Assembly (NCBI GenBank): GCA_030829545.1
Contig: JAURAI010000003.1
Span: 1-64,000 of the forward strand
Source of the DNA: Candidatus Poseidonia sp.
Lineage (GTDB): Archaea > Thermoplasmatota > Poseidoniia > Poseidoniales > Poseidoniaceae
Reading direction: 5' to 3'
Length of the DNA stretch: 64,000 nt
In this document: piece after piece, positions 17,024 to 31,918 of the stretch
Layout of the letters: each line of letters begins with the position of its first letter
Numbering within the stretch: the first letter of the stretch is position 1
The notes under the pieces: model-generated
What the model was told of the DNA's origin: nothing
Seen by the model: the letters and a program-made list of their open reading frames with translations, nothing else
Databases searched by the model: none
Made by a program: the position numbers and the translations under genes

Positions 17024-17308
17024 ATGGTCAAGCGTCCTCGTCAAGTCAAGCGTTACAGCCCTTCAGCGGGCAAGCACACAATGCATACCGTTGAGCGTGT
17101 CAAGAAGAGGCGAGCCTCTGAACTGCGCTGGGGTCAACGACGATTCCGTCGTGTCATGGCTGGATACCGTGGTTTCCCACGTCCAAAACCCGACGGTCGT
17201 GAAAAACCTACCAAGCGTGTGAACATTCTTTACCGATGCACCGAAACCGGAAAGGCGCATTATGCACCGTGCAAGCGGGCAAAGAAGTTCGAACTGGTTG
17301 ACAAGTGA
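17024..17308 (+). CDS. rpl44e: Ribosomal protein eL42 (L44e)
   Basis: MVKRPRQVKRYSPSAGKHTMHTVERVKKRRASELRWGQRRFRRVMAGYRGFPRPKPDGREKPTKRVNILYRCTETGKAHYAPCKRAKKFELVD. Confidence 0.93.
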   Translation: MVKRPRQVKRYSPSAGKHTMHTVERVKKRRASELRWGQRRFRRVMAGYRGFPRPKPDGREKPTKRVNILYRCTETGKAHYAPCKRAKKFELVDK

Positions 17309-17318
17309 GGTGTGAAAG

Positions 17319-17489
17319 ATGAAAAACAATTTTCTCAAAGTAAATTGCCGTGACTGTGGCAGCGAATCAATGATTTATTCCCGCGCCACCACTGTGATCA
17401 CCTGCGATGTTTGCAGTGCAACCCTCACCAAACCATCAGGTGGAAAGGCTGAACTGATCGGCTGCACAGTTGTTGAAACACTCGAATAA
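17319..17489 (+). CDS. rps27e: Ribosomal protein eS27 (S27e)
   Basis: Below ORF-track cutoff. MKNNFLKVNCRDCGSESMIYSRATTVITCDVCSATLTKPSGGKAELIGCTVVETLE*; zinc ribbon, lies between eL42 and aIF2alpha. Confidence 0.92.
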   Translation: MKNNFLKVNCRDCGSESMIYSRATTVITCDVCSATLTKPSGGKAELIGCTVVETLE

Positions 17490-17504
17490 GGAGGCTGAGC
17501 CTCC

Positions 17505-18293
17505 ATGACGAACGACATCAAAAACACCCCAGACGAGGGTGAATTGGTTGTTGCCACCATCAAGACCGTCAAGCAAAACGGCGCCTATGTCGACCTTGAC
17601 GAATACGAAGGCGTTGAAGGCTTCATTTTCATTGGTGAAATCGCAAGCGGGTGGGTCAAAAACATCCGTGGAATTGTCCGAGAAGGGCAACGTGTGATCT
17701 GCAAGGTCATGCGCACACGTCGTGACGGCACATCGATGGAATTGTCACTCAAATCCGTCTCAGAAGAACGTCGTCGTGCTCGCCTTCAGGAATGGAAAAA
17801 TGAACAACGTGCTCAACAACTTCTGAAAGTCTTGAGTGAAAAATCGTCCTGGAGTGAAGAGGACCTCGCCGAGCAAAAGGAAGAGCTCATCGAAGCCTTC
17901 GGAACACTTTACACCGCTTTTGAAGAGGCTGCTATGAAAGAAGGAGCGTTGGAAAACGCTGGATTTGAAGGCGATTGGCTTCAAGCCTTTATCGAATTAG
18001 CCGTTGAGAATATCATCCCCCCATTCGTTGAAGTGCGAGGCATCCTTACACTCAGCATCAACGCAATTGATGGCGTCAAAACCATCCAAGAGGCACTCTC
18101 TGCTGCAGAAGAACTTGCGAATGCGGAGGAAGAAACTGAAGTGAAGTGTTTCTACGACGGTGCCCCCAGTTATCGCCTTGAACTTCGGGCTCCTGATTTC
18201 AAAATCGCTGAATCCCTTTGGGAAAAAGCAACATCAATGGTCGTAGACCATATGACCAAAGCAGGTGGAGAAGCATCCGCCCAAAGAGAGTGA
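17505..18293 (+). CDS. Translation initiation factor 2 subunit alpha
   Basis: N-terminal S1 domain GELVVATIKTVKQNGAYVDLDEYEGVEGFIFIGEIASGWVKNIRGIVREGQRVICKVM and C-terminal alpha-subunit fold; conserved neighbourhood. Confidence 0.92.
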   Translation: MTNDIKNTPDEGELVVATIKTVKQNGAYVDLDEYEGVEGFIFIGEIASGWVKNIRGIVREGQRVICKVMRTRRDGTSMELSLKSVSEERRRARLQEWKNEQRAQQLLKVLSEKSSWSEEDLAEQKEELIEAFGTLYTAFEEAAMKEGALENAGFEGDWLQAFIELAVENIIPPFVEVRGILTLSINAIDGVKTIQEALSAAEELANAEEETEVKCFYDGAPSYRLELRAPDFKIAESLWEKATSMVVDHMTKAGGEASAQRE

Positions 18294-18297
18294 TTCC

Positions 18298-18531
18298 ATG
18301 GTTCGACAGCGTATGCAACAATGCCTCTCATGTGGCAAATTCTCTCTTAAAATCGAATGTCCGTCCTGTGGTGAACGTGCTCAGGCTGCTGCCCCACTCA
18401 AGTGGTCGCCTGAAGACCATCGAGCAGGCCTTCGTCGAAAGATGAAGCAAGTCGAAGTGAAGCAATGGGCTGAATCACTCCCCACACTGCCATCTCTTGA
18501 AACCATGCAGAATATGGAAGAAGAGGAATGA
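18298..18531 (+). CDS. Nop10-like H/ACA RNP protein
   Basis: MVRQRMQQCLSCGKFSLKIECPSCGERAQAAAPLKWSPEDHRAGLRRKMKQ; zinc ribbon plus P..WSPEDH..RR pattern, directly after aIF2alpha. Confidence 0.8.
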   Translation: MVRQRMQQCLSCGKFSLKIECPSCGERAQAAAPLKWSPEDHRAGLRRKMKQVEVKQWAESLPTLPSLETMQNMEEEE

Positions 18532-18621
18532 GACGGTATCACCATTAACATCCCAAATAGCCCTCCTTCCTCTTGCGTGAACGTCAAACATTATAACGCG
18601 TCTTGCTACGATTTTGAGTTC

Positions 18622-19377
18622 ATGGCCCTGCATGTAGAATGGCGTGGAAAGCATCAGCACCTGCCCGATCACAACGTACTCTTGATCGCTTTTCCCGGAA
18701 TTGGAAATATCGGAAAGGTAGCCATAGAAACAATTCGTAAATTGGATGGAACCACTGAAGTCGCTCGACTCCATCCAACTGGACTTCCACCCCTCGCCTC
18801 ACTTGATGATGATGGATTGCTCGCCCCGCCCCATCTCTCGCTCAACCAAACTATCACTCAAGACGGTGTCAGCATTTTGACACTTGTCGGCTCTGCCCAG
18901 CCGAATGAACCAAGCCAACAATCTGGAATGGCCACAGAATTAATGCAGTTCTTCAAGGCACAAAACGTCCACGACCTTCTTGTTTTAGCTGGTATGATCG
19001 ACGCCCCAGAACGGAAAGTGACCTTTGCAGTTGCAAGTTCAGCAAGCCATCGAATCGACTTGGAACAAATGGGCGTGGACGTGCGAAGAGATGAACCAAG
19101 TTCAGGGGCTATTGGAGTGACTGCACTTCTGGCCTCAATGGGCCCTCTTTACGGCATGAATTCAACCTGCATCATCACCACAACCGTTGGCTCAAGTGGA
19201 GATATTCTGGCATCTCAGCGAATGATTGAGCGAATTGATGATTGGTTCAATCTCGGCCTTACATTGCCCAAGGAAGGCAACGAATGGCTGAAAAAGAAAC
19301 TCGAGGCCATCGCACCGAAGAACAGCGAAGACCTCGTTGGCGAAATAACAGCATCTCATGATGCATTCTACATGTAA
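18622..19377 (+). CDS. PAC2 / proteasome assembly chaperone family protein
   Basis: VLLIAFPGIGNIGKVAIETI...; PLYGMNSTCIITTTVGSSGD; position after Nop10 matches the known archaeal neighbourhood. Confidence 0.75.
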   Translation: MALHVEWRGKHQHLPDHNVLLIAFPGIGNIGKVAIETIRKLDGTTEVARLHPTGLPPLASLDDDGLLAPPHLSLNQTITQDGVSILTLVGSAQPNEPSQQSGMATELMQFFKAQNVHDLLVLAGMIDAPERKVTFAVASSASHRIDLEQMGVDVRRDEPSSGAIGVTALLASMGPLYGMNSTCIITTTVGSSGDILASQRMIERIDDWFNLGLTLPKEGNEWLKKKLEAIAPKNSEDLVGEITASHDAFYM

Positions 19378-19464: not shown

Positions 19465-19519
19465 TCTGTGACTGGGCTCATACGCGACGGTCATAAGGAT
19501 GATGTCGTGTCGCAATCAC

Positions 19520-19720
19520 ATGGAGATACGCTTCCATGGCCGTGATGTTGAGATGACCGTTGAGGTTGATGAAGGTACGACAGTACGCCAAGCCCTTCTG
19601 AAAGCAGATGTTCTACCTTCGATGGTTATTGTGAGTTTTGAAGGAACGATTCTCCCTCATGGAACCCCGCTGCAGCAATCTGTTGAATTGCTCGTCACTA
19701 CGATTTCATCAGGCGGCTGA
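19520..19720 (+). CDS. Ubiquitin-like beta-grasp protein (SAMP/MoaD/ThiS/Urm1 type) with C-terminal Gly-Gly
   Basis: MEIRFHGRDVEMTVEVDEGTTVRQALLKADVLPSMVIVSFEGTILPHGTPLQQSVELLVTTISSGG*. ORF track starts 7 codons earlier (19499). Confidence 0.8.
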   Translation: MEIRFHGRDVEMTVEVDEGTTVRQALLKADVLPSMVIVSFEGTILPHGTPLQQSVELLVTTISSGG

Positions 19721-21562
19721 CCGATCGACCCGGTTGATGATCTGCAACCTGGAATTTCGGGTGTAATCTCCACGCACTTCAGTTGCCCATGCATCAAGGC
19801 CGATGTTCGTAACAACGACATCATCCCCGACTTCCACCATTTCAAATTGAGCATTCCAATCATCAGCCCAACCTTCAATTTTCATCGCACCCGTGTGGTC
19901 GAGCAACATCATGCCGCGGCGGCGCCAGACCTTTCCATTGCGGCCAACACCACTTTTCTGATAGGTGTAGACAACCTTTCCACCCACGCTGTGTTTTGCT
20001 TGATAATCCATCAAATTAAAGGATTCAGTTTCAGGTGATTCATCAAGACTGAGGCGGGCAAAGGGATCGAATTTGAGGACGATTTCACCCTTCCAATTCA
20101 CGGTGAAAATCGCATCTTCGACAAGGACATTTTGACCTTTTTTAGGCAAGGAGTGCCATGTTGAACCACCGAGGTGATGTTCATTTGAAACGAAATAAAG
20201 TTGAGCGAAATACTCATCTTGTTTGAGAACCATTTTCAAGGGAGATTTTTCGCGAATAAGGCCGACTGAAAACAATTCGCCGCGAACTGTAGCCCTCGCA
20301 TTGAGATGTCCGATTTCCTCCAACATGGTGGCATTAAGCGAGCCGGGCAATTGCAATCGTGAAGGCAATACCTCTTCATCAGTACCTGAGCCGTTGGGAC
20401 ACATTGCCTTCCAGTCACATCGGTCGCAACGTGACATGTTAGGTGGGTCTGCAGGCTTCCCCCCGGGAGCGAACCCTCGCATTGGAGCAGGTGCAGGTTG
20501 ACAATCCTCTCGAGCAGGCTTTTCTTGCTTCAATTCACTCCACAAACTTTTCAATTCCCGCTCCATTTCATCCATTTCATCAACAGAAGGGCAAGGAATT
20601 TCTTTGATACTTGCATGTCCAAGATACCAAATCTGGAGTGATTTGACCTGTGAAGTACGCCCGTGAGTGACATACCACAGCATGGCATACATTCGTAATT
20701 GCTCAACATAATCGGCGGAACGGTCGTTGGCTCCAACGCTTGCTTTGAGGTCGACGATGGTGATGTCACCGTCCCAACGGTATACCAAATCGTATTCACC
20801 TTGGAACCAATGTTCGGGGTGAATAGCATTCATGGTGAAGGGTTTTGCATCTGGATGAACAAACCAGGGCCTTGAGATTTCCCAAGCCTCCAACCATGTG
20901 ACGTCTCCCTGTGCCGCCAGTGGATGGTGGCGTGCAAAATCCGTCTGCTGATAGCCATCTGGTGCTGGCCATTCCTCTCGTTTTCCAGAGCGCCATTGAC
21001 CCAAATACGGTCCACCACCCGCTTCGAAGCATCGTTCAACTTCGCGTAGATGGAAGGTCAAACCCTCAAAGACCATGCGAAGGACTTCTTCCTCCTCGAC
21101 ATCTAGCCAATCACCAGCCTTGCGTTCATCTTTTTCCCATTCTTTTCTGCATCGTTCAAATACAAGTGGGAAATGATGTTCTGCCCGAGTCAAGGTCCAC
21201 TCACGCAAATCGTGGGGATTATCGGGAATCATTGATTCATCCAATGGAAGAAGTATTGATGCGGGCCAGGAACGACCGTCCTCTCGAGTCGGACGACCTT
21301 CGTCGTCCAAAGGAGGTTGACCGTATGTTTCAACCGGAGCCTCACCAATGATCAATCCCGGCGATTCGCGAAGGACACGACAAATGGTTTCCTCAACCGC
21401 CCTGCCAACAAAAAGAACTGGAATCTGTGGCATCTTGAAACGGAGGACTTTTTCATAATACCAAAGGCGAGGGCAGGCCTTGTAGGTGTTGAATTGGCTG
21501 GCAGAGAGGCGCGCGTATGGCCCGATTGTATCGGTGTCGCTATCAGCAAGTTGAACGGGCAT
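19709..21562 (-). CDS. PD-(D/E)XK (RecB/Cas4-like) nuclease with probable Fe-S cysteines and C-terminal OB-fold-like region
   Basis: RLSASQFNTYKACPRLWYYEKVL; GEYDLVYRWDGDITIVDLKASV; EQLRMYAMLWY; CDRCDWKAMCP; C-terminal KVWRRRGMMLLDHTGAMKIEGWADDW. Confidence 0.75.
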   Translation of the reverse strand: MPVQLADSDTDTIGPYARLSASQFNTYKACPRLWYYEKVLRFKMPQIPVLFVGRAVEETICRVLRESPGLIIGEAPVETYGQPPLDDEGRPTREDGRSWPASILLPLDESMIPDNPHDLREWTLTRAEHHFPLVFERCRKEWEKDERKAGDWLDVEEEEVLRMVFEGLTFHLREVERCFEAGGGPYLGQWRSGKREEWPAPDGYQQTDFARHHPLAAQGDVTWLEAWEISRPWFVHPDAKPFTMNAIHPEHWFQGEYDLVYRWDGDITIVDLKASVGANDRSADYVEQLRMYAMLWYVTHGRTSQVKSLQIWYLGHASIKEIPCPSVDEMDEMERELKSLWSELKQEKPAREDCQPAPAPMRGFAPGGKPADPPNMSRCDRCDWKAMCPNGSGTDEEVLPSRLQLPGSLNATMLEEIGHLNARATVRGELFSVGLIREKSPLKMVLKQDEYFAQLYFVSNEHHLGGSTWHSLPKKGQNVLVEDAIFTVNWKGEIVLKFDPFARLSLDESPETESFNLMDYQAKHSVGGKVVYTYQKSGVGRNGKVWRRRGMMLLDHTGAMKIEGWADDWNAQFEMVEVGDDVVVTNIGLDAWATEVRGDYTRNSRLQIINRVDRSAA

Positions 21563-21603
21563 AGTAGAACGAAAGGAACCACCCCTTTTGAAGGCTCACC
21601 AAT

Positions 21604-23337
21604 TCAGTTCTTGAAAGACGGTTGTGTCGAGGTTTCAAAGCGTGTTTTACGATTGTCAATGCGCAGTTGAAGAATGCCTGAGCGCCAACCGATTTCCACT
21701 CCAGTCATCGAAACCAAATCACCAGGTCGAAGGTTGAGGAGGCGCTGGTTGATGCTGGATCCAAAGGCGACAACTTCAGCGACATGCGCTCCATCCCACA
21801 GAATGAAGGTCAGCATCGTCCAAGGTTTGCCATCGAGACGAACTCCGGAGCGTTTGCGCAAAGACAAGACATGTCCGCTGACATTTGCACGTGTTCGCAA
21901 CAAACCGAGTCGGGTAAATTCAGTCGTGCTCTCTTCATTCTTATCTGAGGCTGGAATGATGGTCGTTTGTTCATCAAGGTAGACTCTCGGCTGGTCCCTC
22001 CATACCCCAGGCATGGCGTTGTGAATCTCTACTTCCCCACCGAGTTTGTGGAGGTCAGCAAAGGCTCCGGGCTCACTCTCCTCAACCGTAACATGCTTCT
22101 GTCCGGAGACCAAAACGGCGCCCAGGACCTGCTCTCCAAAATGATTGGCTAAGGACCATTCACCACCCAATGAGCCACGGACAGAAACGCGACCTTGTAT
22201 GGATGCCAGTGGCTGGTAGGGCATTCGCAGGGAAACGGAGGGAATGGATTCTATCCAAGCGGTCGTCTGAGTTGTATTCCAACCTGAATCATCGTTCGAA
22301 ACCGAGCACCAAACACAACCTGCTGCAGAACCATCACAAGCCTGCTGCGGCGTTTTCGGGAAGGCGAGGACTGCTTCGCCTTCGGCTTGCATCAATTCAT
22401 GTTGTGTTCGATAAAATTCGGTGAGGTCTTCAATCTCTTGTGAATCTGGAGCATCGTACATGATACGCTCGCCTCCGTTGAGATACCAACCTTCCATGGA
22501 GGCAACCAATTCACCATCGTGGGTTTGATTCCATAGCCATGAATAAAATCGAAGTTGATGCTCAAGGGAAGAAGAAAAAGCAGAACCTGAACGCCCGGAT
22601 TTGATATCGACCAATCGAATTCTTCCATCCCATCGTAGCACAAGGTCCAATTCACCTGAAGCCCAACCATCGGGATGATAGAGACGTTGGGGTTGATGAA
22701 CACGGGGATCTTTGACCCACGGGCGAGCGCATTCCCATGCTTCATGCCATGTTAAGGCGGCGCCATCCTCACTCCATGTCGCATGGTCCTCTGTATCCCA
22801 TTTCATTTTGTCAATATCTGGAACTTTTTCAGGCCGAGGGAAGAAGGGTGTTGACCCCCATGAGGGAGATGGAACGGAGAAGGTTTGAACGCCTTTTCTG
22901 TTCGCCTCCAAGTAAGGGCCACCTCCAGCATGAAAACACGCTTGAACCTCCTCCAAAAAAAGGCTTAAACCATCAGAGATTCGTTGTTCAAAGGAAGAAA
23001 GAAGAACGTCATTCCAATGGGTTCCCTCTTCAGTCCAGAGTGATTCTTCCCATTCTTCTGCACCTCGTTCGTGAGCTTTCTTAGCCAAAGCAGGAATGGC
23101 TGATTGTGCCCATTGTTTGAGTGAGTCATAGGAATCCATGGTAGGCGGGTGCATCATCAACAATTCACAGAGGACATCCTCCAAGACTACACCAACAATC
23201 TGTGAGGGGCGTGTAGGACCTTGGAGGCCTACTTGGTAGGCGAGCAGCCATTGCCGTGGGCATCGCAGATAGGTGGTCAATGAACTCGCAGAAAGACGGC
23301 CTCGTGAGCGACCCAATGGGCCTCCAAGTGGAGGCAA
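21604..23337 (-). CDS. Second PD-(D/E)XK (RecB/Cas4-like) nuclease, tandem paralogue of 19709-21562
   Basis: RLSASSLTTYLRCPRQWLLAYQVGL; SGELDLVLRWDGRIRLVDIKSGRSG; HQLRFYSWLW; CDGSAAGCVWCSV; C-terminal KPWTMLTFILWDGAHVAEVVAFGSSIN. Confidence 0.75.
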   Translation of the reverse strand: MPPLGGPLGRSRGRLSASSLTTYLRCPRQWLLAYQVGLQGPTRPSQIVGVVLEDVLCELLMMHPPTMDSYDSLKQWAQSAIPALAKKAHERGAEEWEESLWTEEGTHWNDVLLSSFEQRISDGLSLFLEEVQACFHAGGGPYLEANRKGVQTFSVPSPSWGSTPFFPRPEKVPDIDKMKWDTEDHATWSEDGAALTWHEAWECARPWVKDPRVHQPQRLYHPDGWASGELDLVLRWDGRIRLVDIKSGRSGSAFSSSLEHQLRFYSWLWNQTHDGELVASMEGWYLNGGERIMYDAPDSQEIEDLTEFYRTQHELMQAEGEAVLAFPKTPQQACDGSAAGCVWCSVSNDDSGWNTTQTTAWIESIPSVSLRMPYQPLASIQGRVSVRGSLGGEWSLANHFGEQVLGAVLVSGQKHVTVEESEPGAFADLHKLGGEVEIHNAMPGVWRDQPRVYLDEQTTIIPASDKNEESTTEFTRLGLLRTRANVSGHVLSLRKRSGVRLDGKPWTMLTFILWDGAHVAEVVAFGSSINQRLLNLRPGDLVSMTGVEIGWRSGILQLRIDNRKTRFETSTQPSFKN

Positions 23338-23388
23338 ACCTACAGGTATGTCAAGACCTCCATCTTGGCAAGAACGCCAATACTGACA

Positions 23389-25167
23389 TCATGCATCATA
23401 GGAATAGTAGTCACCACTGTTTCGTTGTTCTCGGTCTTTGCGACTTTCTGATTTGTTGATGCGTGGCCTGCGTGAATCATGGTCACGGCGGAATGTTACA
23501 TCGACGCTTGACAAAAATTTGTTCATTCCTTCTCGTAGGTCAAATGGACCGGTTGCACGACCTTCAATACCACCTTTCCCTTCGAAAACAAGGAGTGAGT
23601 CGGCAACGATATCGATGAAGTAAACGTCGTGGTCGATGACAAAGGCTGATTTTTCATTCGCTTCCATGGTTCTACGGATGGCCTTAGCGGCTTCCATTCG
23701 AGCATTTGCATCCAAGTGGGCAGAGGGTTCGTCAAGCAAATACAAATCCGCATCTCTCCCTAAGCATACCGCAATCGAAACGGCTTGTCGCTCACCACCA
23801 GAGAGTTTCTTCACACGCTTTGAAAGAAGTTGGTCAACGCCAAGTGCTCGAATGACGTTCACGTTAAATTCACCACTGCGCCATTTTGGACCCAATTCAC
23901 TGTCGAGCCACAATTGAACAGAGCCGTCTATGTCAACATCGATATGCTGTGGTTTGTAGGAAATCGTTGCGTCGGCTGTGACCCATCCTTCGTCGTATTC
24001 ATGTTCGCCGGCAAGCAATTTGATCATGGTAGATTTACCAGTTCCGTTTGAACCTACAACACCCACAACCTCTGCTCGATGAACGGCGCCCTCACCCGAA
24101 GTAAGTGAAAACTCACCGAGTTGTTTCTTCAGTCCACCCCAACTTACAACCGGGGTGCCAATCTCTGCTTTCCGGTCACGATGTCGAAGGAATTTAATCG
24201 GTTTGTCGCGAATTCGCACGTTCTCTTCGGGAAGGAAGCCATCGAGGTAACTGTTGATGGCCTGGCGGGTGGAGCGAGCAGGTGTAAAGATACCAAAAGC
24301 CCCTTTCTTTCCGTAGACGATATGGACCAGGTCTGCGAGTACATCGAGAACGGCGATGTCGTGTTCAATCACAATGACACGCTTGGTTTCAGAAAGGCGT
24401 TGAATGATTCCGACGATTCGCATGCGTTCGTGAATGTCAAGATATGATGATGGTTCGTCAAAGAAATAGACGTCAACGTCACGAAGAATGGTGGCGCAAA
24501 TGGCCATACGTTGCAATTCCCCACCAGAAAGTTGCTGAATCGTTCTGTCAAGAAGATGGTCAATGCCCAAATCTTTGGTCATCTGTTCCATGATCTTGCG
24601 TTCATCCACCTTGGTGAGCAGTTCCCTCACGGTACCCTCCACTCGTTTTGGCAAGCGGTCGACGTTTTGCGGTTTGACAGCAACACGAATCTTGCCGTCC
24701 TGTACAGCGATAAAGAAATCCCTCAATTCACCCCGTGGGAGGGATTCGATGACGTTTGACCAAATTGGTTCAGTATCAAGCCAATCGCCGAGGTTGGGGA
24801 TAATCCGCCCTGAGAGCGCGCTGATGGCAGTCGATTTCCCCATACCGTTGGGGCCAAGGATACCTACAACGCTTTCTTTGGATGGAGTGGGAAGACGGAA
24901 CAGACGAAAGCCATTCATGGAATAACGGTGGATCATATCCGTTTCAAGTTCACTTGGGAGGTTCTCAATGATGAGTGCGTCATGCGGACATTTGTTGATG
25001 CAGATACCGCATCCGATGCACAAGCTCTCAGAGATGTGGGGCTTTCCTGTTTTGTCATCCATGATGATGCATTCTTGTCCGTTTCGTACGGGTGGACAAA
25101 AATCATGACATTCGTCATTGCATTTCTTAGGCTGACAATTGTCTTCCTTCAGAACTGCAACACGCAT
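23389..25167 (-). CDS. ABCE1/Rli1 ribosome-recycling ATPase
   Basis: N-terminal CNDECHDFCPPVRNGQECI and CIGCGICINKCPHDAL ferredoxin motifs; GPNGMGKST and GSNGTGKST Walker A; QLSGGELQR and KLSGGERQA signatures. Confidence 0.95.
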   Translation of the reverse strand: MRVAVLKEDNCQPKKCNDECHDFCPPVRNGQECIIMDDKTGKPHISESLCIGCGICINKCPHDALIIENLPSELETDMIHRYSMNGFRLFRLPTPSKESVVGILGPNGMGKSTAISALSGRIIPNLGDWLDTEPIWSNVIESLPRGELRDFFIAVQDGKIRVAVKPQNVDRLPKRVEGTVRELLTKVDERKIMEQMTKDLGIDHLLDRTIQQLSGGELQRMAICATILRDVDVYFFDEPSSYLDIHERMRIVGIIQRLSETKRVIVIEHDIAVLDVLADLVHIVYGKKGAFGIFTPARSTRQAINSYLDGFLPEENVRIRDKPIKFLRHRDRKAEIGTPVVSWGGLKKQLGEFSLTSGEGAVHRAEVVGVVGSNGTGKSTMIKLLAGEHEYDEGWVTADATISYKPQHIDVDIDGSVQLWLDSELGPKWRSGEFNVNVIRALGVDQLLSKRVKKLSGGERQAVSIAVCLGRDADLYLLDEPSAHLDANARMEAAKAIRRTMEANEKSAFVIDHDVYFIDIVADSLLVFEGKGGIEGRATGPFDLREGMNKFLSSVDVTFRRDHDSRRPRINKSESRKDREQRNSGDYYSYDA

Positions 25168-27149: not shown

Positions 27150-27260
27150 CTTCCAACTCTCTTGCAATACAATGAGGGTCTCGCCAAGAATGAGGCGAGA
27201 ACCTTCATGTGCCCTCGTCAACTTCCTCAAACTCCAGCGTAAGCCATGGAGGTGATGATC

Positions 27261-29909
27261 ATGACAAAAAGGGGCATGATGGACCAGTTCTTTGATCTCA
27301 AAGAAGCACATCCCGATACCATCCTTTTCTTTCGCATGGGCGACTTTTACGAACTCTTTCATGAAGATGCTGAAATTGCCGCCGATGTTCTCGGCTTGGC
27401 TTTAACGTCCAGAGACAAAAAGGCCGCCGAGCCAATTCCCATGGCTGGATTCCCCTGGCATGGTCTGGAAGAGCATCTGCGAAGCATGCTTCGAGCAGGC
27501 TACAAAGTAACGGTTGCAGAGCAGGAAGAGGAGTTGCGAGAGGGTGCGAAATTACTCGAACGTGTAGCAACCCGAGTCTATACGCCCGGAAGCCTCTACG
27601 AAGAAAATTTGCTTGACGGAGATGAACGCTCCATGCTCGCCGCAGTGGCGCTATCGAACGACAGCCTCGGCTTAGCCGTCATCGATGCGTCAACGGGTCA
27701 GGCATGGGCCAGCACGCACGATGGTTCCGACCGCTTTCTCCGCTTGACCGATGACCTGCAACGATGGCAGCCAACCGAATTGGTTCTCTCATCAAAGGAT
27801 GCTGAAGACCCACAGATGGGAACATTATTCCTCCACTTGGACGGGGTAATGGTGAGCCACCATCAACTGAATAAACAACGCCGAGAGGACCGATTACGAG
27901 ACATGCTCAACGTCGCAGATTTGGGACACTTGGACCTCGATAGTGCCCCGTTAGCACTCTCCGCAACCGGCTTGGCTGCAGATTATTTGGCCACCGTTCA
28001 TTTGCGCACGGAAATACCACTCCGTGACGTCGAAGTCATCGAAGAGCAAGGGCACTTACTTCTTGACCAAACCACCCTCAAGAATCTTGAATTGACCTCC
28101 ACACTCGCAGGGGAATACGAAGGAAGCCTTCTTTCCACCTTGAACCGTTGTCGCACTGCCATGGGGCGCAGGCTGCTTAAAACTTGGATTCTTCATCCTC
28201 TTGCGACAACGGACGCCATTGCAGCACGTCACCAAGCAGTTGGATCACTGAGTCGCTCGTCAAGACGTTTGGACGGTCTACGTGAATCACTCAAGGGCAT
28301 CCGAGATATGGAACGACTGGCTACACAACTGTCCTACGGACGAAGCAATGCAAGAGATATTCTCGCTACTGCATTAGCGCTTGAGCGCATGCCCGCTATC
28401 ATGCAGTGGTGTGGAGACACCAAAGATCCACTCTTGCAACATCTTGCATATGACCTTGATGCCCTTAGTGAAATGGGCGCACTCATTCAACAGACCTTGG
28501 ACCAATCTCCCCCACTCAGCCTTCGGGACGGAGGCCTGTTGCGGCAAGGAGTGGATGAAGAAATCGACCGTCTTCGAGACATTACCTCCAAGGGAAAGGC
28601 GTGGTTTTCAGAATTGGAAGCCGACTTACGCACTGAATTGGAGATCCCTTCGCTTAAAGTTCGTATGAATCGACAAATAGGTTGGTTCATTGAGGTCACC
28701 CAATCTCATGAGGACAAGGTTCCAGAGGCTTGGCGAAGAAAGCAGCAAATGACCAATGGTTCGAGATACATTACTGATGAATTGGTTGAACGGGATGATT
28801 TGCTTCTTGGAGCAGATACCAAATTGAAGGAATTAGAATACAGAAAATTCCTGGAATTGCGAACATATTGCCTCCAGCATGCCCCTGCACTTGCCGATAT
28901 CGCAAGGCACATTGCAGCCATTGATGTTTTGCAATGCTTTGCAACAGTAAGTCGCGAACGTCAATGGGTCCGTCCAGAAATGGTCGATAACGACACCCTC
29001 GTTTTGGAAGGAGCACGACACCCTGTCCTCGAACTGCAATCAGGCTTCGTGCCCAACGATTTGAACATGAATAAAAAACGCAATTTCTTGCTCATCACGG
29101 GTCCAAACATGGGAGGTAAATCGACCTATTTGAGAACGGTAGCCCTTCTCACCGTGTTGGCACAAGCTGGCTGTTATGTCCCTGCCAAGAAGGCAAAGAT
29201 TGGGATGGTTGACCGAATTTTTACTCGCGTGGGTGCGAGTGATGATCTTCGCAGAGGCCGCTCAACATTCATGATGGAGATGATTGAAGTCGCTCATATC
29301 TTGAAGCGTGCCAGTGCCCGTTCCCTTCTCCTGCTTGACGAAATTGGCCGTGGAACATCGACCTTTGACGGGCTCTCTATCGCTTGGGCAGTGACCGAAG
29401 ATGTGTGCCAGCGCATAGGAGCACGCACTCTCTTTGCCACCCACTATCACCAACTTATCGGCCTTGAGGGAGAAATTCATGGCCTTCACAACGTTCACGT
29501 TCAAGTGGTTCAGGACGAGGGAACGTTGCGATTCTTGCACACAGTGGCAGACGGTCCTTGCGATGAGTCCTACGGTGTCCAGGTTGCTGCACTCGCTGGG
29601 TTACCTCGTAATGTCGTTGAGCGAGCAACCGACTTGCTGGCTTTCTTGGAACGCCAGGCGCACGGGGCAAAGGCAGGAGAACAAGGAGCACCGGGCAGCA
29701 GGGACCTCGGCCAATCAAGCCTGATGGGTTACTTTGCAGCAGCAGCCATGACCGACCAAGGCCAACATCAACCACCACAAGAACAGCCTCAACATCACCG
29801 AGATGTCATCGAACGTCTGTTGGAAGCGAACGTTGATGAATTAACACCAAAACAGGCACTCGATTTACTCTACACACTCAAATCAACGGTAGGGGGTGAA
29901 GACTCATGA
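27261..29909 (+). CDS. mutS: DNA mismatch repair protein MutS
   Basis: MMDQFFDLKEAHPDTILFFRMGDFYELFHEDA; ITGPNMGGKSTYLRTVALL; DEIGRGTSTFDGLSIAWA. GGAGGTGAT precedes ATG at 27261. Confidence 0.95.
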   Translation: MTKRGMMDQFFDLKEAHPDTILFFRMGDFYELFHEDAEIAADVLGLALTSRDKKAAEPIPMAGFPWHGLEEHLRSMLRAGYKVTVAEQEEELREGAKLLERVATRVYTPGSLYEENLLDGDERSMLAAVALSNDSLGLAVIDASTGQAWASTHDGSDRFLRLTDDLQRWQPTELVLSSKDAEDPQMGTLFLHLDGVMVSHHQLNKQRREDRLRDMLNVADLGHLDLDSAPLALSATGLAADYLATVHLRTEIPLRDVEVIEEQGHLLLDQTTLKNLELTSTLAGEYEGSLLSTLNRCRTAMGRRLLKTWILHPLATTDAIAARHQAVGSLSRSSRRLDGLRESLKGIRDMERLATQLSYGRSNARDILATALALERMPAIMQWCGDTKDPLLQHLAYDLDALSEMGALIQQTLDQSPPLSLRDGGLLRQGVDEEIDRLRDITSKGKAWFSELEADLRTELEIPSLKVRMNRQIGWFIEVTQSHEDKVPEAWRRKQQMTNGSRYITDELVERDDLLLGADTKLKELEYRKFLELRTYCLQHAPALADIARHIAAIDVLQCFATVSRERQWVRPEMVDNDTLVLEGARHPVLELQSGFVPNDLNMNKKRNFLLITGPNMGGKSTYLRTVALLTVLAQAGCYVPAKKAKIGMVDRIFTRVGASDDLRRGRSTFMMEMIEVAHILKRASARSLLLLDEIGRGTSTFDGLSIAWAVTEDVCQRIGARTLFATHYHQLIGLEGEIHGLHNVHVQVVQDEGTLRFLHTVADGPCDESYGVQVAALAGLPRNVVERATDLLAFLERQAHGAKAGEQGAPGSRDLGQSSLMGYFAAAAMTDQGQHQPPQEQPQHHRDVIERLLEANVDELTPKQALDLLYTLKSTVGGEDS

Positions 29910-31918
29910 CGAAAAGAATCCAACAATTGGATGATACCACCATCGGTCACATCGCGGCTGGCGAGGTCGTTGAACGCCCTGCACAAGTGGTCAAGGAATT
30001 GGTCGAAAACAGTCTTGACGCAGGTTCCACAAGCGTTTCAATCACCGTTGAAAACGGTGGTTTTGATGCATTGGTCGTTGAGGACAATGGATCTGGCATT
30101 GTCGCCGAAGACTTACCACTGGCCCTTGACCGCCATGCAACCTCTAAATTAACCAACAAAAACGACCTCGCATCCATTGCATCCCTTGGATTTCGTGGTG
30201 AGGCGTTAGCGAGTATCGGCATGGTCTCTCGGTTGACCATCGCAAGTCGCCCGGCTTCTTCAGATGGTGCAAGTATCGTCATGGAAGACGGGGTCAAGAA
30301 TGACCCAAAGCCAACGGGAATGCCTGAGGGCACCAGAATCTCTGTTGAGCACCTCTTCCAAAATACACCTGCAAGGCTGGCATTCCAACGTCGCCCGGAA
30401 ACCGAAACAGCCCGTATTGTGGATGTTGTCGTAAGCCATGCTCTCGCCCACCCAGAGTGTGCATTCCACCTGAAAACAGAACGAAGAACCCTGCTCAACG
30501 TTCCAGCAACTGATGATATGCTCGATCGGCTTTACGACATCATGGGATCTCAAGCCACAGATTTGATCGAACTAAAACTACCACCGGATGATGAAGAAGC
30601 ACCCGGTAGCGAGCGATGGGAAGGCTGGATCAGTACCCCTGACATTACCCGAGGAAAGGGCGATGATATCCACATCCTCATCAACGACCGTCCGGTTGCT
30701 GCTGGCCCATTCCTACAGGCCATTCGTCGTGGTTACAAGACTCGTCTGATGCACGGGAGACATCCCGTTGCAGTGCTCAATCTCACATGCCCTCCAAATG
30801 AAGTCGACGTGAATGTTCACCCTACCAAGCGTGAAGTGCGATTGAGGCATTCCTGGCGTGTCCTTGAGCGTTTGGAACGGGCCATTGCATATTCCCTTGA
30901 ACAAACACCAACTGAACCTGACGCAACCGGTGGCATACCAGCCCTCCAAGGATTGAAACAGAGTAAATCTCCCACGTTAGTAGAAACTCACTTAGCACCT
31001 CAAAAACAAGTTCAGGAAATAAATCAGACGTTGAGTTCAGCGGCTGGTTTGAATGAACAACGAGCATCGCAACCCACAGAAGCCATCGCTCCGCCAGCAT
31101 GGGCAGTTGCAGCTGGTCGCCAACTCAATCTCGTTGGGGATGAGGCGCTTGAAGAGAGTGACAATCCCAAAGCAAGGCCAATCTCATCATCACCATTGGG
31201 CCAGGCAACGCTACCAGACATGGACGAGATTGTGATTTCACCAGCATTATCCTCAGGAGAACGCCAACTCCACCGACTTTCTGGAAGCATTCAAAGCCAT
31301 TCACCAGAACATGAAACACCCCTTGAAGGAGTGCTCAATGAGCTTCCCGAGATGGAGCCACTCGCTCAATTTGCAGATTCATACATCCTCGTTCAAGCGG
31401 AGGATGAACTTCTTTTGGTAGACCAACATGCCCTTCATGAGCGTATCCGATACGAACGTTTGAGGTATTCAGGGCAAGCATGGGAGCCTCAGCAACGACT
31501 GACTCCACTTTCACTCGAACTCGATGTGCGACAGGCTGCTGTGGTTGACGCCCAACAGGAACGATTGATTTCGCTTGGGTTCCACCTTGAGCGAATTGAT
31601 GATGATTGGTGCCTCACTGCATCACCCCAATTGCTGGATGGAGAATCGCTTCGTTCCTTTTTCCTCGATGTGCTTCAAGATGTTGCAGAAGATGGGGCTC
31701 CACTTGAAACGATTGAAGAACGCAAGGATCACATCGCGTTCATGAATGCCTGTCGTGGCGCTGTTAAGGCGAATCAATCCTTGACCTTGCCCGAAATGCG
31801 CCGTTTGTTAGAGGACATGAGGCGCATTCCCAACCCGTGGGCTTGCGTCCACGGACGCCCAACTTCGCTACGAATTCCGGTCGACAGCCTCGACCACCAT
31901 TTTGGCAGACACGGCTGA
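29906..31918 (+). CDS. mutL: DNA mismatch repair protein MutL
   Basis: IAAGEVVERPAQVVKELVENSLDAGS; LGFRGEALASI; C-terminal DQHALHERIRYE and CVHGRPTS. Starts inside the mutS stop (ATGA). Confidence 0.95.
   Translation: MTKRIQQLDDTTIGHIAAGEVVERPAQVVKELVENSLDAGSTSVSITVENGGFDALVVEDNGSGIVAEDLPLALDRHATSKLTNKNDLASIASLGFRGEALASIGMVSRLTIASRPASSDGASIVMEDGVKNDPKPTGMPEGTRISVEHLFQNTPARLAFQRRPETETARIVDVVVSHALAHPECAFHLKTERRTLLNVPATDDMLDRLYDIMGSQATDLIELKLPPDDEEAPGSERWEGWISTPDITRGKGDDIHILINDRPVAAGPFLQAIRRGYKTRLMHGRHPVAVLNLTCPPNEVDVNVHPTKREVRLRHSWRVLERLERAIAYSLEQTPTEPDATGGIPALQGLKQSKSPTLVETHLAPQKQVQEINQTLSSAAGLNEQRASQPTEAIAPPAWAVAAGRQLNLVGDEALEESDNPKARPISSSPLGQATLPDMDEIVISPALSSGERQLHRLSGSIQSHSPEHETPLEGVLNELPEMEPLAQFADSYILVQAEDELLLVDQHALHERIRYERLRYSGQAWEPQQRLTPLSLELDVRQAAVVDAQQERLISLGFHLERIDDDWCLTASPQLLDGESLRSFFLDVLQDVAEDGAPLETIEERKDHIAFMNACRGAVKANQSLTLPEMRRLLEDMRRIPNPWACVHGRPTSLRIPVDSLDHHFGRHG

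Follow-up and report, generated by a model that had tools for sequence, protein, structure and literature searches.

Two adjacent genes of Candidatus Poseidonia sp., here called nucA and nucB, almost certainly encode conserved proteins under selection, in which a nuclease domain of the RecB/Cas4 type is followed by RPA-type OB folds. Both lie on the minus strand of the window, i.e. the whole stretch of 64,000 nucleotides that was analysed (positions 1 to 64,000 of contig JAURAI010000003.1, assembly GCA_030829545.1), with nucB preceding nucA (19709..21562; 617 aa) at a distance of 41 nt. An earlier note on this DNA had described a tandem pair of RecB/Cas4-like nucleases at 19709-23337. The pair is borne out as tandem paralogs of 27% identity, and both reading frames are as given there, but NucB probably extends from 21604 to 23349 instead of starting at the TTG at 23337.

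Domain architecture and active sites

The nuclease domain, which covers about residues 17-390 in NucA, matches the Pfam family PDDEXK_1 (PF12705) with 54.5 bits for NucA and 63.1 bits for NucB against a cut-off of 22, and this match is present in all aligned orthologs (33/33 and 29/29, respectively). In a library of viral models, RecB-family and PD-(D/E)XK exonucleases were matched across about 400 columns, and by profile the nuclease part resembles Cas4 (4r5q, E 3.1e-4). Profiles were required for such comparisons, as single-sequence searches of the PDB with NucA and NucB gave nothing usable. Since full-model fold searches of the PDB were swamped by OB folds, the nuclease fold rests on Pfam, the viral models and the Cas4 profile match.

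The C-terminal regions, which the earlier note had called OB-fold-like, proved to be genuine OB folds. NucA contains a first OB fold at about residues 410-510 and an RPA-type second one at about 520-612; its profile matches archaeal RPA from Pyrococcus (E 3.7e-7, residues 523-608) and gives a second, weaker OB match at residues 414-510. In NucB, the two OB folds are found at about 384-462 and 483-570, with a likeness to RPA/SSB that is weak by profile (E 0.028) and clear by fold. The OB family PF01336 was matched in 19/33 NucA and 15/29 NucB members. Modelled separately with AlphaFold2, both proteins display a nuclease domain of mixed alpha/beta structure and, C-terminal to it, two units rich in beta strands (mean pLDDT 91.1 for NucA and 89.2 for NucB, pTM 0.87 for both), and the top PDB fold matches of these models are the double OB folds of RPA and HIN-200 proteins (E 2e-8 and 3.8e-9, the latter for NucB).

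Conservation was read from alignments of 117 NucA and 107 NucB sequences, drawn from 40 fetched loci and 80 named genome loci. The GExD, D-x-K and QxxxY nuclease core recognized in the earlier note is invariant, i.e. E256, D258, D271, K273, Q288 and Y292 are identical in 117/117 rows of NucA, as are E229, D231, D244, K246, Q261 and Y265 (counted from TTG 23337) in 107/107 rows of NucB. With these complete motif sets, nuclease activity is predicted for both copies. Measured against a relative of 91% identity, dN/dS is 0.078 for NucA and 0.070 for NucB; where present, neither copy is decaying, as judged from these values of 0.07-0.08 and the intact motifs, and a decayed copy in relatives, which the earlier note had considered, was not what we found. 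No helicase family was detected by Pfam in either protein or in any of the 33 NucA and 29 NucB orthologs.

The assignment of the NucB start is based on a 5′ end that reads GGAGGT-CTTGAC-ATA-CCT-GTA-GGT-TTG, in which an ATA codon (23347-23349, minus strand) follows the Shine-Dalgarno sequence GGAGGT at a distance of 6 nt. Because the orthologous N-terminus MPV(G/x)xPP begins at this position, where relatives use other start codons, the true start is probably ATA 23349, with TTG 23337 being four codons late.

Canonical, re-wired and absent cysteine clusters

In the nucleases AddB, Dna2 and the bacterial, Dna2-like Bad, an iron staple is formed by four cysteines that span the nuclease domain, one N-terminal and three C-terminal (PMC7430649). 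NucA has such a set in C30, C379, C382 and C388. C379 and C382 are found in 117/117 rows, C30 in 116 plus one with an unreadable X, and C388 in 116 plus one with a gap, so that every readable ortholog has the order C...CxxCx5C; we take the exact spacing CxxCx5C to be that of AddB, Dna2 and Cas4.

NucB is more diverse. All NucB sequences of family f2 have Cx2Cx5C as in NucA. In family f1, the cysteine that should follow the CxxC has disappeared, and another one precedes this pair, which results in Cx6Cx2C, Cx5Cx2C, Cx4Cx2C or Cx1Cx2C. NucB of the window (C26, C334, C341 and C344, again counted from TTG 23337) belongs to the Cx6Cx2C type and therefore does not have the canonical CxxCx5C order. 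Finally, both NucB sequences of genus g9 are without the whole set, with the N-terminal cysteine replaced by glycine and the catalytic residues kept. Thus, a CxxC...C cluster in NucA and an altered one in NucB, as first noticed in this single stretch, are found throughout the order.

Non-canonical spacing in f1, the loss of all cysteines in g9 and the absence of the gene from seven f2 genera could be taken to mean that the Fe-S cluster of NucB is broken and the gene copy in decay. This has become highly improbable and is largely refuted by a dN/dS of 0.07, the same as for NucA, by motif residues retained in every aligned row and by the three distal cysteines, which occur in all full-length NucB proteins except for the two g9 sequences. 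Rather, as the altered pattern is systematic by lineage and full loss is limited to g9, the f1 cluster has probably been re-wired instead of lost, and the order shared by NucA and f2 NucB is likely to be ancestral, with the f1 order being derived. Retention of four cysteines through relocation and their joint loss in g9 are what would be expected for a functional cluster, putatively of the 4Fe-4S type. With canonical, permuted and absent cysteines occurring next to intact catalytic residues in a single family, these proteins represent a natural experiment on the purpose of the Fe-S staple.

Distribution and history of the pair

A NucA/NucB match was obtained in 120/125 sampled Poseidoniales genomes, and none of 21 genomes of Marine Group III has these proteins, apart from one marginal match. 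A profile search for full-length relatives elsewhere in the Thermoplasmatota gave only weak matches, and the one match outside of the Poseidoniales that was examined in detail is confined to the OB half (423-610); therefore, we claim no full-length homologue outside of this order. Among the best 80 of 306 confirmed loci in the genome collection, all come from Poseidoniales or marine euryarchaeal assemblies, with the closest named relatives of NucA in Poseidonia sp. and Candidatus Poseidoniales assemblies (Marine Group II). A scan of viral contigs yielded no confirmed relative of either protein.

In a phylogenetic tree, NucA and NucB each form a monophyletic clade with 100% support. Since both clades include f1 and f2 sequences, duplication took place before these two families diverged, and the two genes appear to be ancient in-place duplicates. 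Most f1 genomes have retained both. Seven f2 genera (g11, g12, g13, g15, g17, g19 and g20) lack NucB, and there is no NucA in g9, in genome G132 (g3) or at the G143 locus (g4). Although genes may go unseen in draft assemblies, the intact neighbours in L074 and in L050/L051 argue for the missing copies being really absent. In NucB-only loci, searches for remnants of NucA matched NucB alone, and in NucA-only genera, candidates for a remnant of NucB upstream of nucA were rejected because they coincide with NucA itself; in the NucA-only locus L063, the next gene upstream of nucA encodes a radical-SAM protein. In g9, a gene for a DEDD-type exonuclease directly follows nucB at the usual position of nucA (L050:8601-9455, L051:6559-7413).

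These patterns bear on the proposal of the earlier note that divergent cysteines in a tandem pair reflect a heteromer with split roles. A heterodimeric nuclease, in which the active sites or clusters of NucA and NucB have different jobs, would be in line with the old duplication, with both copies being kept in most f1 genomes and with the different cysteine arrangements, as well as with genes that, wherever both occur in the loci read, are always adjacent and in constant order, about 40 nt apart here. However, the existence of NucA-only and NucB-only genomes, i.e. the seven f2 genera on the one hand and g9 with some g3 and g4 genomes on the other, makes an obligate heteromer unlikely across the order. 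Furthermore, both active sites are complete, which means that roles are not split by catalytic loss, and the NucB cysteines are mostly relocated. The argument from cysteines to split roles is thus not supported, and a heterodimer of this kind appears doubtful.

Genomic neighbourhood

In every nucB-bearing locus read, in f1 and f2 alike, the gene directly 5′ of nucB encodes ABCE1, the RNase L inhibitor or ribosome recycling ATPase (23389..25167, minus strand, in the window), and in most f1 genomes the gene for ribosomal protein L10e/L16 (25261..25845, minus strand) precedes that of ABCE1 in the same orientation. The resulting order rpL10e-ABCE1-nucB-nucA is opposed by COG2047/PAC2-Nop10-aIF2alpha-S27e-L44e, i.e. 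the LSIN cluster (17024..19377, plus strand), which converges on nucA and consists of L44e (17024-17308), S27e (17319-17489), aIF2-alpha (17505-18293), Nop10 (18265-18531) and COG2047/PAC2 (18577-19377). Between this cluster and nucA, a ThiS-like small ORF of 73 aa ending in Gly-Gly (19499..19720, plus strand; ThiS E 0.0075, below the curated cut-off) overlaps nucA at its 3′ end in antisense orientation and could encode a SAMP or ubiquitin-like modifier. Further away, genes named by inspection as MutS- and MutL-like are adjacent at 27246-31918 (plus strand), an arrangement that is unusual in archaea.

The same-strand linkage to rpL10e and ABCE1, together with the nearby LSIN cluster, could point to an RNA-processing nuclease tied to ribosome biogenesis or recycling. 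We consider this quite improbable, since in NucA-only genera nucA persists without the linkage to ABCE1, and the known cases of the RecB/Cas4/Dna2 subfamily and of RPA-type OB folds have DNA as their target. Moreover, LSIN genes in many archaea adjoin those for PCNA, primase and GINS (PMC2643942), and for this reason the locus fits a role in replication or repair. With the LSIN side being convergent, this neighbourhood is compatible with such a role but no proof of it.

The conserved housekeeping position between ABCE1 and the LSIN cluster also speaks against a chromosomal defence nuclease that would act on viral DNA in the manner of solo-Cas4 or of Druantia DruK. Such a function is suggested by a weak likeness to the Cas4 and DruK profiles and by the over-representation of solo-Cas4 in small-genome archaea, for which a role in defence or repair has been proposed (PMC5704561). 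Strong purifying selection and presence in nearly the entire order do not agree with this idea; no defence genes were noticed alongside, and no relative was confirmed in viral contigs. Mobility and a patchy distribution are the rule for defence genes, and a defence function seems improbable here. As the earlier note had remarked, the pair stands outside of any CRISPR or AddAB context: Cas1 was found in 0/39 Poseidoniales genomes, and neither protein showed a helicase domain. Among 60 Poseidoniia genomes, the sole Cas1 match (E 3.4e-19) occurs in the Marine Group III genome G023 (L180).

A candidate for DNA end processing

A survey of end-processing enzymes points to a gap in which such nucleases might operate. 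With a Thermoplasmatota Mre11 as the query, Mre11 was detected in 0/20 Poseidoniales genomes, which are mostly drafts, as opposed to 75/83 Thermoplasmatota outside of the class Poseidoniia; both Mre11 and Rad50 are common in the rest of this phylum. A query with the Thermoplasmatota Rad50 ATPase domain matched only stretches of 50-65 residues with ATPase motifs in Poseidoniales, mostly in ORFs of SMC size, and a search for the Rad50 zinc hook was too insensitive, with controls positive in 3/14. NurA was found in 0/39 Poseidoniales genomes, with its detection being patchy across the phylum. HerA-like hits in f1, which match at 24-26% and for the most part fall in ORFs of about 830 aa, probably represent another ATPase. 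Within our partial coverage of the literature, no published work on Mre11/Rad50 in Marine Group II was found.

With Mre11, Rad50 and NurA undetected in Poseidoniales, it is reasonable to regard NucA and NucB as candidates for the end-processing nuclease that is missing. However, the correlation between the presence of these nucleases and the absence of Mre11 comes from a single lineage, and in part Marine Group III runs counter to it: its genomes lack NucA and NucB, and two of the three sampled are also without Mre11, so that simple replacement is insufficient as a full explanation.

A helicase-free nuclease of replication or repair that processes DNA ends or flaps guided by single-stranded DNA is a function to which we give about an even chance. 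The iron-staple PD-(D/E)XK domain of the RecB/Cas4/Dna2 type would cut DNA, presumably with a divalent metal. The C-terminal tandem OB folds would hold single-stranded DNA, with a putative preference for ssDNA or flap substrates, and thereby direct cutting to single-stranded tails or to flaps; any helicase that is required would be supplied in trans. The most likely cellular job would then be the trimming of DNA ends or flaps, i.e. break resection or fork and flap processing, in an order in which neither Mre11-Rad50 nor NurA was detected. Of this picture, the data establish the folds, the intact motif residues, the action of purifying selection, the conservation across the order, the age of the duplication and the conserved position. 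What speaks against this reading is that the neighbouring genes serve translation and that the LSIN cluster is convergent, not co-transcribed.

A more far-reaching version, which we put forward only tentatively, is that NucA and NucB are the main end-resection nucleases of Poseidoniales and have replaced a lost Mre11-Rad50 (and HerA-NurA), with the Fe-S staple of NucB re-wired by moving a ligand across the CxxC and discarded in one genus. If true, this would amount to an ssDNA-guided, helicase-free resection enzyme, for which NucA and NucB provide a concrete and conserved candidate.

Comparison with known systems

NucA fits the pattern of AddB, Dna2 and Bad (PMC7430649), with a RecB-type core and one N-terminal and three C-terminal cysteines. 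In contrast to these enzymes, NucA and NucB do not have an SF1 helicase in the same chain and instead end in tandem OB folds, and the cysteine order is permuted in f1 NucB, with none of these cysteines in g9 NucB. With solo-Cas4 (COG1468 / TIGR00372 / PF01930), they share the nuclease superfamily, the cysteine layout, a non-CRISPR location and a weak profile similarity, but they are about three times longer and contain a Trp-rich insert (EAWExxRPW) as well as the OB folds; their cas4 equivalog scores of 20.9 and 15.6 bits are far below the cut-off of 65 for CRISPR-associated Cas4. Many of these genomes also encode another protein with a Cas4 domain, about 390-430 aa long, e.g. one of 391 aa (L177:4047-5222, minus strand) whose nuclease domain is apparently interrupted by membrane segments. 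The likeness to NurA-HerA and Mre11-Rad50 is in the proposed job of DNA end processing only, whereas the proteins and their architecture differ. With archaeal RPA/SSB, finally, NucA has in common an RPA-type last OB domain, which here, however, is fused behind a nuclease.
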